Below, in pieces: positions 20,597 to 30,155 of a stretch of 32,931 nt of DNA (positions within the stretch are counted from its first letter, which is position 1; every line of letters begins with the position of its first letter). The notes beneath the pieces were generated by a model. That model did no database searches. It had not been told where the DNA came from and saw only the letters and a list, made by a program, of their open reading frames with translations. A program made the position numbers and the translations under genes. This DNA is from a virus: IMG/VR virus record IMGVR_UViG_3300043469_000145, positions 1 through 32,931 of that record; one strand, 5' to 3'.

Positions 20597-21742
20597 TTAT
20601 TTTATTATTTCGCCGTTGCGTTTAATTACTAAACTTGGGTCTAGTTTTTTCATACGGTCAATTATTACTTGGCAGTAATGTGGTTCAAACTCCATCATTA
20701 AACAATTTCTCTTAGTTTGATGACAAGCAACCATAGTAGCACCACTTCCACCAAATAAATCTAAAATAGTATTTCCCATTGCATAACTATTAAAACAATA
20801 GGAAGCTAACTCAATAGGTTTTTGTGTTGGATGAACTCTTTTTTGTCCGTGTTCCGAGCCTTTAATCATACCTTTCCAAAGATGTCTAAAAATTCTAATA
20901 GACGAATGACCATCATTAATAAAAGCTAACTCACAATCTGACTGAGTATCTCTTTGATTTTCTTCAACTCTTTTATCCCATACCAACCAATTATTTGTTT
21001 GTGGTAAATGATGACAATAATAATTTGCTCCCCACCAAACTTCTTTTGACGGATTAAATTCTCTGGTTATATTGTAAGCATCAACTGCGTATTGAATAGT
21101 ATCGTCTTTAAAGTCTTTTAAATTATTACCTTGACAAGCACCACCTCTTTCGCTTCTATCACCTTTTTCATTTATTCCGTAAGGAGGGTCTGTATAAATT
21201 GAAAACTTTTTATTATTTCCAATTAATTTAAAAACATTATCTACATCTGTACTATCCCCACAAAGTAAACGGTGTTCGCCTATTTCAAATAAGTCACCTA
21301 AAACTATGTCAGTTTCTATTCCACCTTCAGGAACGCTAAAGTCGTCTTCTTCTGCTTCGAGTTCTGTTACGCTTAAATCAACAGGTAAATCTAATCCCCA
21401 GTCTTGTATCTTTTCTACGTCCCATTCATTAGCTAATATATCCCAATCCCATTCTCCAAAGCCTACGTTGTCCTTTACTATAAATTCGTCTTTTTGTAGC
21501 TCTGTTAGGTTCTCTGCCTTGACAATAAACACTTCCTTCATACCTGCTTCCTTACACGCCTTTAAACGCATATTGCCACCCAGCACGATATTGTTCTCAT
21601 CTACAACGATTGGACGCAGCTCCAGCATCTGAGGGAACTCCTGAATAGATTTGACGAGCTTTTTAAACTTATCATCTTTGATTAGACGTGGGTTCTTTGG
21701 GTTCGTCTTGACCTCACTGATTTTAACTTTATCTACTTGCAT
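20597..21742 (-). CDS. ParB-like domain fused to N6-adenine DNA methyltransferase
   Basis: This 381-residue protein has an N-terminal ParB/Srx-like domain (about 1-110), with NPKNPR and LGGNMR (54-59), a fold that binds nucleotides. After a Glu-rich linker comes a beta-class methyltransferase domain with TDPPYG (184-189, catalytic motif IV), HPTQKP (304-309) and LFGGSGAT (329-336, SAM-binding motif I). It should methylate adenine in an unknown sequence. No restriction endonuclease is nearby, so it probably protects phage DNA or regulates packaging, being next to the terminase. Confidence 0.88.
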   Translation of the reverse strand: MQVDKVKISEVKTNPKNPRLIKDDKFKKLVKSIQEFPQMLELRPIVVDENNIVLGGNMRLKACKEAGMKEVFIVKAENLTELQKDEFIVKDNVGFGEWDWDILANEWDVEKIQDWGLDLPVDLSVTELEAEEDDFSVPEGGIETDIVLGDLFEIGEHRLLCGDSTDVDNVFKLIGNNKKFSIYTDPPYGINEKGDRSERGGACQGNNLKDFKDDTIQYAVDAYNITREFNPSKEVWWGANYYCHHLPQTNNWLVWDKRVEENQRDTQSDCELAFINDGHSSIRIFRHLWKGMIKGSEHGQKRVHPTQKPIELASYCFNSYAMGNTILDLFGGSGATMVACHQTKRNCLMMEFEPHYCQVIIDRMKKLDPSLVIKRNGEIIK

Positions 21743-22118: not shown

Positions 22119-22298
22119 TTATTTTTTAAAGTGTTCTTTACTTAACTCCTGTAAATCATTACGGAGCATTTCATTTTCTTTTTTTAGTCGTTTACATTCT
22201 CTTTCCATACGAATGTACTCTCTAAAGTTTTCTTTTGAGCGTTCCTGACGTAACTCCAGTTCTCGCTCTACTAATTCAAGTATATTTCTAAACATCAT
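22119..22298 (-). CDS. Small coiled-coil protein
   Basis: A 59-residue frame (MMFRNILELVERELELRQER at the start, ending ELSKEHFKK) begins at the ATG at 22298-22296, giving an ATGATGA overlap with the sigma gene stop. Nearly the whole protein is a charged coiled coil with heptad spacing. A partner of the sigma factor or of DNA-modification proteins is possible. No family known. Confidence 0.6.
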   Translation of the reverse strand: MMFRNILELVERELELRQERSKENFREYIRMERECKRLKKENEMLRNDLQELSKEHFKK

Positions 22299-22822
22299 AT
22301 TAAATCAAAATCTTGGTTAGTAAAATCCGTGTAGTCTTCTCCGACTTCTTCCTTAAGTCTTTCTTTGCAGTTCTTTAGCGTGTTAAATATCGAAGTTAAG
22401 CTGATGCCTGAGTCTTTAGCAATGTCTCTCATTGATGCGTTGCCTTCCTTGTAGACTTTAAATAACATTGAGTCATACCAATGCCAGTTATCCATTTCTT
22501 CGTGTATCCTGATATGCAATCTTTCTAAGGCTTCGTGTTTTTCTAATTCACAATCAACATCTGCAACTCCTCTTACTTCGTCTAATGATAGAAACTGAAC
22601 GCTGCCCGTTTTGTTTATTTCAAATGCTCGGTTGCGAAGCATCATCCACATCAAAGCAATGTTTGGTTTACCATCTTTGATTATCTTCTCCTCGTAGTTG
22701 TACTTTACGATTCTCAGGTAAACATCCTGCACTACATCTTCGGCAAGGTCTTGCTCTCCAAATGAACGGACTATCTTTACCCATTCTTTGTGGTGGTCTG
22801 CTAAAATTTTAAGTGCATCCAT
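22295..22822 (-). CDS. ECF-like sigma factor
   Basis: The 175-residue protein resembles a minimal sigma-70 factor. Region 2 is seen in FGEQDLAEDVVQDVYLRI (about 21-38) and region 4 in MRDIAKDSGISLTSIFNTLK (about 130-149), a helix-turn-helix that would bind a -35-like box. It would redirect host RNA polymerase to late promoters. It has its own consensus promoter and is the first gene of the late-direction operon. A length of 175 is normal for an ECF factor. Two 12-bp direct repeats flank its promoter. Confidence 0.7.
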   Translation of the reverse strand: MDALKILADHHKEWVKIVRSFGEQDLAEDVVQDVYLRIVKYNYEEKIIKDGKPNIALMWMMLRNRAFEINKTGSVQFLSLDEVRGVADVDCELEKHEALERLHIRIHEEMDNWHWYDSMLFKVYKEGNASMRDIAKDSGISLTSIFNTLKNCKERLKEEVGEDYTDFTNQDFDLI

Positions 22823-27854: not shown

Positions 27855-28799
27855 TTAAAAAGGGTTTTGGTTTGCTAATTTACGGAGCTTTTCCGAAGTT
27901 GAAATTACATCTTTTGCAGATTCAAATGTTGTTTGAAATTCTTTTGGTCGGAATGGAGCTAAAGGATCTACTCCGTTTATTTGGAATCCAATACCTGAGT
28001 TAAACTCACATATCACAGGAAAGTCAATCTCCGTATGTTTTCCTCCAGTCTCCACATCTTTAACCTTTTCTACTTGCAACCAAGTTTTGTATTTATGTTC
28101 AGGATGTTTAATTAATCGGTGAATAACTAACATATCATCACAACGGTTTAAGAAAGCCTTACCACCTTCAATGTGGTCTTTTAATGGTGCTTTTAAATGA
28201 CCTTTTAATGCGCCTTCTGCATACAAGTTTCCTGTTCTGCCTGATTCGGAGTTAGGGTGCGTGTTTATGTAAATTGTCATTCCCGTTTGATTAACAAACT
28301 GCCTTGCTCGGTTCATAAATTCGTAGTTACCTGAGAAGCTCATCTCTCGGTCAAGTCCTGTGAATGGATCTATAAGTCCAACATCTGCTCCGCTATTCTT
28401 AAAAAGTTCGAGAATCTCATCAGGTTTGTAAAGTTTTGAGTTGTCAATAAACGTAAAGAACTGCTCCAAGTATGCAAGGTCTCCACTAATTTGCGAATGG
28501 CTCAATTTACTGAAGTGCTTGCCTCTATACATTTGAATCATATCTCGCAGGATTTGACCTTTCTGATTCTCACCTGACCAAATGCAAAAGGTTAGTCCGT
28601 GTTTAAGTGCAAGCGTAATAAAGTACCAGTTAATCCAATACGTCTTGCCGACATTGTCGTGTCCTAAAATGATGTTTAGTTGTTTAGGCTTAAATCTCAA
28701 ATGCTCGTCTAAAAAGCAGTCAAGACCGAGTCCTTGTTTGATTTTACCATCTCGCACATCGAGTAGGTATTGTAGTGAGTCTCCTTGTTTTAGTAGCAT
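27855..28799 (-). CDS. DnaB-like helicase / RecA-fold ATPase
   Basis: The 314-residue protein has Walker A GHDNVGKT (46-53) and a Walker B strand VGLIDPF (140-146), and the order of motifs fits the RecA-like C-terminal half of DnaB-type replicative helicases. The DnaB N-terminal domain is missing. Its gene overlaps the replisome-organizer gene in a TGATG-like junction and lies directly next to the iteron array, as expected for the helicase loaded at a phage origin. Confidence 0.72.
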   Translation of the reverse strand: MLLKQGDSLQYLLDVRDGKIKQGLGLDCFLDEHLRFKPKQLNIILGHDNVGKTYWINWYFITLALKHGLTFCIWSGENQKGQILRDMIQMYRGKHFSKLSHSQISGDLAYLEQFFTFIDNSKLYKPDEILELFKNSGADVGLIDPFTGLDREMSFSGNYEFMNRARQFVNQTGMTIYINTHPNSESGRTGNLYAEGALKGHLKAPLKDHIEGGKAFLNRCDDMLVIHRLIKHPEHKYKTWLQVEKVKDVETGGKHTEIDFPVICEFNSGIGFQINGVDPLAPFRPKEFQTTFESAKDVISTSEKLRKLANQNPF

Positions 28800-29458
28800 C
28801 AGTTGTTTTTTAGTGCGGTTAATAATCTATCGTTTTCCTTTTCAATCCAATTAGCGTTAAATCCTTTCCAAGAACGCTCTACGCATTTTCTTAAAATATG
28901 GTTTCGGTCTCCTCCGTGTTTTTCTACTTGACTCATAAATGAGTTGAATGCAGTTTCAGTATTTACGGCTTTCAATTGTTTACGAACTTCCATCCATTCA
29001 AGAGATAACTTTTCGTCAAATCCGTTTTCAAGTAGAGAAGCTAAAAAGCTATATTTATTATTCTTTTCATTCTTTTCATTCTTGTTTGTTGTTAGTTGTT
29101 TGTTAGTCACTTGTTGATTGTTTGTTAGTGGCTTGTTAGTCTCATCGTTTTCATCTTGGTAACATTCATATTTTGAGATAGTTACGATAGTAAATTGGCT
29201 TGTTGATTTTACTTCAATTTCGTTAGTCTTTTCTAACTTTTTTAAAATGGTTCTAATCGTTTGAATTGATATACCAGTAGCGTTAGAAATGTTACCTAAA
29301 GACGAAATGAACTGACCTCTTTTTACTTCAATGCCTTGCCACTTACCATCCTTATGGTTAGCTTTTAAAAGCATATACATAAACAAGTGAACTGCCTCCG
29401 ATTTATTAAACCATTCCCACTCCAAAAACTTGCGATGTATTTTAATCCATCCTGACAT
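28799..29458 (-). CDS. Replisome organizer / replication initiator
   Basis: The 219-residue protein resembles DnaD/RepO-type phage initiators. An N-terminal winged-helix part (MSGWIKIHRKFLEWEWF, then KANHKDGKWQGI and SNATGISIQTIRTILKKLEKTNEI, about 1-75) should bind DNA. The middle (about 105-130) is a low-complexity Asn/Thr/Lys/Gln stretch encoded by the iteron array and AT-rich repeats. A C-terminal helical domain (about 138-219) may bind the helicase encoded next. As in lambda O, the origin is probably within the initiator gene. Confidence 0.78.
   Translation of the reverse strand: MSGWIKIHRKFLEWEWFNKSEAVHLFMYMLLKANHKDGKWQGIEVKRGQFISSLGNISNATGISIQTIRTILKKLEKTNEIEVKSTSQFTIVTISKYECYQDENDETNKPLTNNQQVTNKQLTTNKNEKNEKNNKYSFLASLLENGFDEKLSLEWMEVRKQLKAVNTETAFNSFMSQVEKHGGDRNHILRKCVERSWKGFNANWIEKENDRLLTALKNN
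29060..29143. repeat. Five 11-bp iterons plus AT-rich repeats, probable origin
   Basis: The octamer TTGTTAGT starts at 29089, 29100, 29122 and 29133, and a degenerate copy (TTGTTGAT) starts at 29111, so five units repeat exactly every 11 bp from 29089 to 29143. The spacing keeps all sites on one DNA face and does not follow codons. Next to it, ATTCTTTTC is repeated in tandem (29060-29068, 29069-29077) within an AT-rich stretch that could be the unwinding element. This is a lambda-like origin layout. Confidence 0.75.
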
Positions 29459-29630: not shown

Positions 29631-29720
29631 AAAAAAACCCCTGCATATCCACGAGGCTCGACGTTCGTTTCAATACAAGGGTTAATAATTCCTTTTGAGT
29701 TTATGGTGTCGAGCCAACTC
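29631..29720 (-). ncRNA. Putative structured RNA with H-type pseudoknot
   Basis: On the minus strand four 8-base segments occur in the order a-b-a'-b'. GGCTCGAC (29715-29708) pairs with GTCGAGCC (29662-29655). AACCCTTG (29683-29676) pairs with CAGGGGTT (29643-29636), with one G-U pair. This interlaced order makes a pseudoknot. A T-run follows (29637-29631), and a perfect -7 box lies just upstream (29726-29733). Loops are 24, 13 and 11 bases. It may be a small RNA ending in a terminator or a leader that controls the 56-residue gene 19 bases later. No known RNA family was recognised. Confidence 0.55.
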
Positions 29721-29725
29721 TCCTA

Positions 29726-29733
29726 CAAATATA
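29726..29733 (-). promoter_or_regulatory. -7 promoter box of the putative RNA
   Basis: TATATTTG on the minus strand matches the Bacteroidetes -7 consensus. A TTTG exists upstream (29749-29746) but only 12 bases away instead of about 19-21, so the -33 element is poor. Transcription would begin close to 29720, at the first arm of the pseudoknot. Confidence 0.45.
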
Positions 29734-29762: not shown

Positions 29763-30155
29763 CTATAAATTATTTTCGTATTTACCTAATTTTATGTGTC
29801 TCTGAATCTTCTTAAACTGCGTGTACGTTTTTGCCTTTAGAACGTCTTTTACCAAGTCAGGTGAATCATCGTAGTAAGGAAGAGTTGCACCGTATAAGAC
29901 CTCATCTATTCGCCTTGTAGCTATCTTGTAGTCTTCGTATCCAAACCGATGTAAGTCTTCGTGTTGACGTAGTCCGTGCAGGATAGTAGCGTGATGTTTA
30001 CCGCCAAACATATTTCCAATTTCAGTTAACGTGTAGTCAATTTTGCGCAGTTCGTTGTAAAGGTAGTACCTGCGATATATGTAATCTCTGCTGCGGTTCT
30101 TTGATTTCAAGCCGTATTCATTGATAAGGCTTTCTATAAGTTCTACTTTTGTCAT
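29763..30155 (-). CDS. DnaA domain-IV-like DNA-binding protein
   Basis: The 130-residue protein carries TLTEIGNMFGGKHHATILHG (42-61) followed by LRQHEDL, close to the DnaA signature in which Gly-Gly-Arg/Lys-Asp-His-(Thr/Ala)-Thr binds the DnaA box. There is no ATPase domain. It would bind DnaA-box-like sites and may recruit or block the host initiator; the nearby iteron array is a candidate target. It overlaps the preceding gene in an ATGA. The final 50 residues are of unknown fold. Confidence 0.72.
   Translation of the reverse strand: MTKVELIESLINEYGLKSKNRSRDYIYRRYYLYNELRKIDYTLTEIGNMFGGKHHATILHGLRQHEDLHRFGYEDYKIATRRIDEVLYGATLPYYDDSPDLVKDVLKAKTYTQFKKIQRHIKLGKYENNL

Follow-up and report, generated by a model that had tools for sequence, protein, structure and literature searches.

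A covarying pair of kissing hairpins ahead of phage replication genes: a candidate self-terminating leader or small RNA

The window, by which we mean the whole stretch of 32,931 nucleotides analysed here, comes from IMG/VR as a virus record, and its minus strand carries the main genes. On that strand, a gene whose product carries a DnaA C-terminal DNA-binding domain, which served as the search handle for relatives, is followed by the RNA element of about 95 nt that is the subject of this work, then by a gene for a protein of 56 residues without a match in Pfam, PHROG or NCBIfam, and finally by a gene for a replication initiator or DnaD-like helicase loader (Table 1). Elsewhere in the window, a protein encoded at 22295-22822 (minus strand) looks by eye like a small σ70-type factor (AEDVVQDVYLRI ... 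ISLTSIFNTLK), and Pfam gives it only a sub-threshold match to the Mga helix-turn-helix; a phage σ factor, if this were one, would matter for promoter use. A DNA methylase with a ParB N-terminal-like domain is encoded at 20597-21742 (minus strand).

Table 1. Genes and parts of the RNA element at the locus, in minus-strand order
Feature	Position in the window	Strand	Basis or remark
Upstream gene, DnaA C-terminal DNA-binding domain	29763..30155	-	Pfam Bac_DnaA_C, E 4e-9
Promoter -7 box TATATTTG (TAnnTTTG)	29726..29733	-	sequence; predicted RNA start about 3-6 nt downstream
RNA element, about 95 nt	29631..29725	-	match to covariance model R1, 91 bits, the window being among the model's 28 sequences
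Helix c, 5' strand GAGUU (hairpin 1)	29716..29720	-	5/5 pairs with compensatory changes, 100% paired, n=28
Loop a GGCUCGAC, strand of the kissing helix in hairpin 1	29708..29715	-	8 pairs 100% paired, 6 with compensatory changes, n=28
Helix c', 3' strand AACUC	29697..29701	-	28-sequence alignment
Single-stranded linker AAAAGGAAUUAUU	29684..29696	-	type-1 consensus AAGGwAUUAUU (alignment)
Helix b, 5' strand AACCCUUGUAU, stem of the terminator hairpin	29673..29683	-	compensatory changes in 8/11 pairs
Internal-loop strand UGAA	29669..29672	-	directly before the 5' strand of helix d
Helix d, 5' strand ACGA	29665..29668	-	compensatory changes in 4/4 pairs
Loop a' GUCGAGCC at the tip of the terminator hairpin, partner of a	29655..29662	-	28-sequence alignment
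Helix d', 3' strand UCGU	29651..29654	-	28-sequence alignment
Internal-loop strand GGAU	29647..29650	-	directly after d'
Helix b', 3' strand AUGCAGGGGUU	29636..29646	-	28-sequence alignment
U-run of the predicted intrinsic terminator	29631..29637	-	sequence
Downstream gene, 56 aa	29442..29612	-	start codon about 18 nt past the U-run; leader without a2
Replication initiator / DnaD-like helicase loader	28799..29458	-	PHROG 2514, E 4e-31

Read along the minus strand, with stems c and d in square and loops a and a' in round brackets, the element runs TATATTTG-TA-GGA-[GAGUU]-(GGCUCGAC)-ACCAUA-[AACUC]-AAAAGGAAUUAUU-b AACCCUUGUAU-UGAA-[ACGA]-AC-(GUCGAGCC)-[UCGU]-GGAU-b' AUGCAGGGGUU-UUUUU. Hairpin 1 consists of the 5-bp stem c carrying loop a, and hairpin 2, which doubles as the terminator, is built from the 11-bp helix b, an internal loop, the 4-bp helix d and loop a', the two loops joining in a kissing helix of 8 bp. 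A sequence-only reading of this DNA had reported two interlaced 8-bp helices in the order a-b-a'-b', and both lie where it placed them: one is the pairing of GGCUCGAC with GUCGAGCC, and the other (b containing AACCCUUG, b' containing CAGGGGUU) is the outer part of the longer b/b' helix. The T-run at the end and the perfect TAnnTTTG box upstream are present as well. When the 103 nt were shuffled 1000 times with dinucleotide content preserved, two such helices, with at most one G-U pair each, arose in only 2 of the shuffles. The nested fold of the single sequence comprises both hairpins at an ordinary energy (z -1.1 against shuffles); this nested part alone is not unusually stable, and the evidence for the fold is comparative. 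The plus-strand fold is stabler relative to shuffles (z -2.5), yet it was rejected, because gene orientation, promoter box, T-run, G-U bias and relatives all favour the minus strand.

Relatives were collected by protein and by pattern. With the DnaA-domain protein as query, 44 viral loci were found; in 42 of the 43 with a readable flank, the DnaA stop codon is directly followed by the promoter box and an RNA of this kind, the exception (L009) having an HNH gene in that slot and the RNA further on. Two DNA-pattern scans of IMG/VR, one for each of the two types described below, added at least 120 rows each. Parsing left at least 185 distinct records, and these reduced to at least 156 distinct complete loci (96 of type 1 and 60 of type 2 among the matches listed); a few of the 185 records, being chance pattern matches without the fold, were left out. 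Isolated phages that carry the element are Tenacibaculum phage Gundel_1, reached by blastn with the RNA of locus L001, and Cellulophaga phages phi19:3, phi13:2, phi46:3 and phi18:3, the Cellulophaga phages being reached by tblastn with the initiator. Blastn against isolated phages gave no match for the window region, for a type-2 RNA or for the RNA of L236. Among 395 Bacteroidota genomes there was no match by R1 (10 candidates scored per genome) or by strict exact patterns, a search that is insensitive to prophage copies, and a search of genome contigs for DnaA homologues returned one distant match.

From a structural point of view, the relatives fall into two types, which were aligned apart because a joint alignment of both misaligned the loops. 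Type 1, to which the window belongs, has a c helix of 5 bp, an a/a' helix of 8 bp, the linker AAGGwAUUAUU, the internal loop UGAA/GGAU and a d helix of 4 bp; the invariance of the linker is partly by construction, since the type-1 scan pattern required the motif AUUAUU. Type 2 has a c helix of 3-5 bp, an a/a' helix of 6-7 bp that fills nearly the whole of both loops, a d helix of 3 bp and an AGUA/GAA motif, whose consensus is that of the sarcin-ricin or loop-E motif. AGUA and GAAA are invariant in 17 aligned type-2 sequences, largely by construction, as these bases were part of the search pattern; the first type-2 loci came through the DnaA protein search, independently of that pattern. A third, looser version of the architecture is found in Cellulophaga phage phi19:3.

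Conservation and covariation of the helices in related phages, on which the sequence-only reading had staked its proposal, both proved strong. In an alignment of 28 type-1 sequences, 98.9% of 783 pair cells are kept and 23 of 28 pairs show double changes, with the reservation that the aligned sequences are kin and such counts are not independent events. The covariation score of this alignment is 0.810, against 0.243 when shuffled and 0.06-0.111 when slid. All eight pairs of the kissing helix are kept in 28/28 sequences, and helices c, b and d also emerge from RNAalifold with no structure supplied. G-U pairs abound (62 cells) and A-C mismatches hardly occur (1), which identifies the functional molecule as RNA of the minus strand rather than DNA. 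The pseudoknot geometry proposed earlier thus holds as a topology, but not as a simple H-type pseudoknot: that fold alone was rejected because helices c (GAGUU/AACUC, around a) and d (ACGA/UCGU, around a') covary fully, and two hairpins with kissing loops are preferred. R1 finds exactly one match per locus in 43 type-1 loci (535 kb) and detects the phi18:3 copy, which is outside the model, at E 5e-6.

Both ends of the predicted transcript are conserved. The TAnnTTTG box, the known -7 element of Bacteroidota, lies within an extended promoter logo, TTATATTTGTA, derived from 143 distinct upstream regions among the matches listed, and a -33 box shows no clear conservation in the upstream regions of the relatives. 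In nearly all of the 143, helix c begins 3-6 nt past the box, which places the expected start of the transcript at hairpin 1 or just upstream of it. At the other end, a U-run follows b' in every aligned relative, interrupted by A or C in a few. In the window, an 11-bp b stem followed by 7 T has the form of an intrinsic terminator, hairpin 2 alone having about -17.6 kcal/mol; a simple consensus terminator scan, which admits loops of 3-8 nt only, does not list it. Together with the isolated phages, the promoter box points to Bacteroidota as the host phylum.

A gene begins close downstream of the element in 155 of the 156 distinct loci, nearly always within about 30 nt. Among the matches listed, these genes form 17 clusters, with 82/155 initiator-like (DUF6291, DnaD-like), 16 HNH and the remainder small proteins, ParB-like proteins and more, and 112 of 150 upstream genes fall into one cluster that includes the DnaA-domain gene, a label that is approximate, as the longest member is an over-extended frame. 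The Gundel_1 copy precedes an antirepressor gene. Downstream of the RNA in L001, L004 and others, a replicative ATPase-like gene occurs in two interchangeable versions (MLLKQGDSLQYLLD... and MYKRLTHLNAEMFAVR...), neither of which is clearly linked to one type of RNA. Ten contigs among the matches listed bear one RNA of each type, with different loops. Two-RNA contigs include L245 (1720-1814 and 3450-3541, minus strand), L214, L203, L262, L090 and L103. Most of these RNAs are immediately followed by a gene each, and the copies inspected either have a gene right behind them or lie where a contig ends.

The element also moves between otherwise similar phages. Out of 40 locus pairs with similar flanks on both sides, 6 carry different loop classes, including swaps of type 1 for type 2 (L016/L019, L074/L259). 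L015 and L081 likewise combine near-identical flanks with different RNA loop classes or types. The RNA is thus exchanged like a cassette, and the fact that nearly identical phages differ in loop type hints at a role in specificity.

In most type-2 copies among the matches listed, a further copy of loop a, a2 for short, is found past the U-run and ahead of the start codon, in the form TTTTA-NNGCAG-TAARATG, where NN is GT, AT, AA or AG to match a', or as GTTGCAG directly before ATG. At least 6 nt complementary to the element's own a' occur in the start-codon region of 28/44 distinct type-2 leaders, against 5/220 for other loops (among the matches listed). All six a'-a2 pairs hold in 20 aligned cases, and both variable positions covary, the four invariant ones being uninformative. 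L173 and L174 have a GGGCAG, a' CUGCCU and a2 AGGCAG; since a2 is a perfect complement of a' and a is not, a2 follows a' rather than a in this one lineage. Among the matches listed, a2 is missing from the window, from nearly all type-1 copies, where it is confined to the CCUUCGAC class, and from about a third of the distinct type-2 leaders. Where a2 exists, the complementarities suggest that a' could pair with either a or a2; where the two helices were compared, a'-a2 roughly matched a-a' in stability or fell below it, so a switch between them would not be obviously biased either way.

Taken together, the element is somewhat probably a phage-encoded, self-terminating leader or small RNA that gates read-through into the downstream operon or its translation, a reading drawn from sequence comparison. 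The RNA would be made from its own host-type promoter, and most transcripts would end at the U-run as an RNA of about 95 nt. No promoter is visible between the U-run and the downstream gene, and read-through transcripts would keep the element as the leader of an early gene, for replication initiation or another function. The level of downstream expression would then depend on whether loop a' is closed on a, open or bound to another partner. Where a2 exists, in most of type 2 and one class of type 1, a' could pair with it instead, within the read-through mRNA itself (in cis) or as part of the short RNA (in trans), and a, a' and a2 would form a three-strand switch of the kind known from the P4 CI RNA (seqA, seqB, seqC) and from IsrK on its own read-through mRNA. 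The window has no a2, so that control there would lie at termination and read-through only, and the initiator operon (28799..29458) is the probable ultimate target. The conserved promoter, the U-run and the kinds of gene downstream agree with the earlier proposal of a small RNA, or of a leader or attenuator in front of the genes for the 56-residue protein and the initiator; its further ideas, ligand sensing and anti-host action, find neither support nor contradiction in these data. A bolder version, which we hold to be doubtful, is a new and widespread class of phage RNA switch, in which the loop of a terminator hairpin would pick either an upstream kissing hairpin or a decoy copy at the start codon, and exchangeable loops would define compatibility or superinfection-immunity groups among Bacteroidota phages.

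The same observations can be read otherwise. A stand-alone small RNA acting in trans on host or phage functions, as a sponge, in anti-defence or by binding protein, with a position that merely reflects early expression, would account for the element's own promoter and terminator, its compact fold and its conserved unpaired bases (the linker AUUAUU and the purine internal loops), and the 17 kinds of downstream gene among the matches listed also fit a function unrelated to the next gene. However, the closeness to a start codon in nearly all copies and the covariation of a2 with a' at start codons make this rather unlikely, and no complement of a' with up to one mismatch lies at any gene start in the window, where loop complements with G-U allowed number 15 on both strands against 8 expected. 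A cis-acting attenuator or riboswitch, with the terminator inside the aptamer and the kissing fold stabilised by a metabolite, an ion or a phage or host protein, would suit the aptamer-like joining of two loops, the unpaired bases that are conserved, the loop-E-type AGUA/GAA motif of type 2 and the U-run right in front of a gene. This is improbable in our judgement, since both architectures occupy the same genomic position, no metabolic theme unites the downstream genes, Rfam gives no aptamer match and no conserved antiterminator helix or other alternative fold was found. A candidate antiterminator AAGG/CCUU in type 1 was rejected, being lost in the AGCCAUUUU class. A start-stop mini-ORF (AUGAAGUAG) in some type-1 members was also dropped, as it is not conserved.

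The location between a DnaA-domain gene and a helicase loader, in the window and in many relatives, invites the idea of a DNA-level replication signal or origin RNA primer, that is, a priming transcript or a primosome-loading hairpin. This is very unlikely, because the G-U bias and the one-sided T-run speak for an RNA with a 3' end and not for a DNA hairpin, the Gundel_1 copy stands before an antirepressor gene, some genomes have two copies and no repeat array surrounds the element. Finally, the strong terminator hairpin and the exchange among otherwise similar phages would be explained by a mere insulating terminator with an elaborate stem, swapped along with gene cassettes, but such an insulator would need neither a promoter at fixed spacing, nor hairpin 1, nor a kissing helix kept throughout the alignment, and we regard it as extremely improbable.

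Rfam 15 gives 0 matches at the gathering threshold in the whole window and, at E up to 10, nothing near threshold for the window RNA and one type-2 RNA, in keeping with the earlier remark that no known family was recognised; a published description of the element was not found in the open-licence literature. We therefore rate it as a new RNA family, absent from Rfam 15, of a kind, the phage regulatory leader or small RNA, that is already known. Its strong covariation and its presence in more than 100 phage contigs from the environment, as well as in phages cultured on Cellulophaga and Tenacibaculum, make it directly testable.

Several known systems share part of this design. Purine riboswitches are kissing-loop aptamers, two hairpins joined by loop-loop pairing; unlike them, the element has no enclosing P1 stem, its second hairpin is itself the terminator, and it has no Rfam match. 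In type III toxin-antitoxin RNAs (ToxI-like), a promoter, a pseudoknotted RNA, a terminator and a gene without its own promoter follow one another, and the element has the same order of promoter, RNA, terminator and gene. In contrast, it is a single unit without tandem repeats, none being found in the region, and no ToxN-like nuclease gene occurs among the downstream proteins scanned (among the matches listed), which are replication, HNH and other proteins instead.

The likeness to the P4 CI RNA and IsrK is one of logic only, with no homology found. The short form of IsrK, from the Gifsy-1 prophage, acts on its own read-through mRNA (PMC4825925). It resembles the element in its succession of promoter, short RNA, terminator and read-through into a phage gene, which for the element is predicted from sequence, and in preceding an anti-repressor gene, as the Gundel_1 copy does, whereas the fold and sequence differ, Rfam detects nothing, and the element's partner site a2 lies at the start codon and in some members only. 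The P4 CI RNA pairs with seqA and seqC up- and downstream of it and stops transcription of the replication genes by premature termination (PMC4825925). It differs from the element in that no sequence or Rfam match links the two, that a and a' are a covarying pair inside one terminated RNA, that the element has an intrinsic terminator of its own while the P4 CI RNA is processed from a longer transcript, and that the element has a Bacteroidota-type promoter, lacks a2 in most type-1 copies and comes with no evidence of lysogeny or immunity. Common to both are a short leader RNA of a phage replication operon and a loop whose complement occurs upstream (a/seqA) and, in type 2, again downstream (a2/seqC); the upstream complement of a' is present in 28/28 aligned type-1 sequences, and the downstream one, among the matches listed, in 28/44 type-2 leaders and the CCUUCGAC class only, being absent in the window. 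If the element does gate replication genes, it would reveal a means of early-gene control in Bacteroidota phages and an independent case of the P4-type a/a'/a2 logic.
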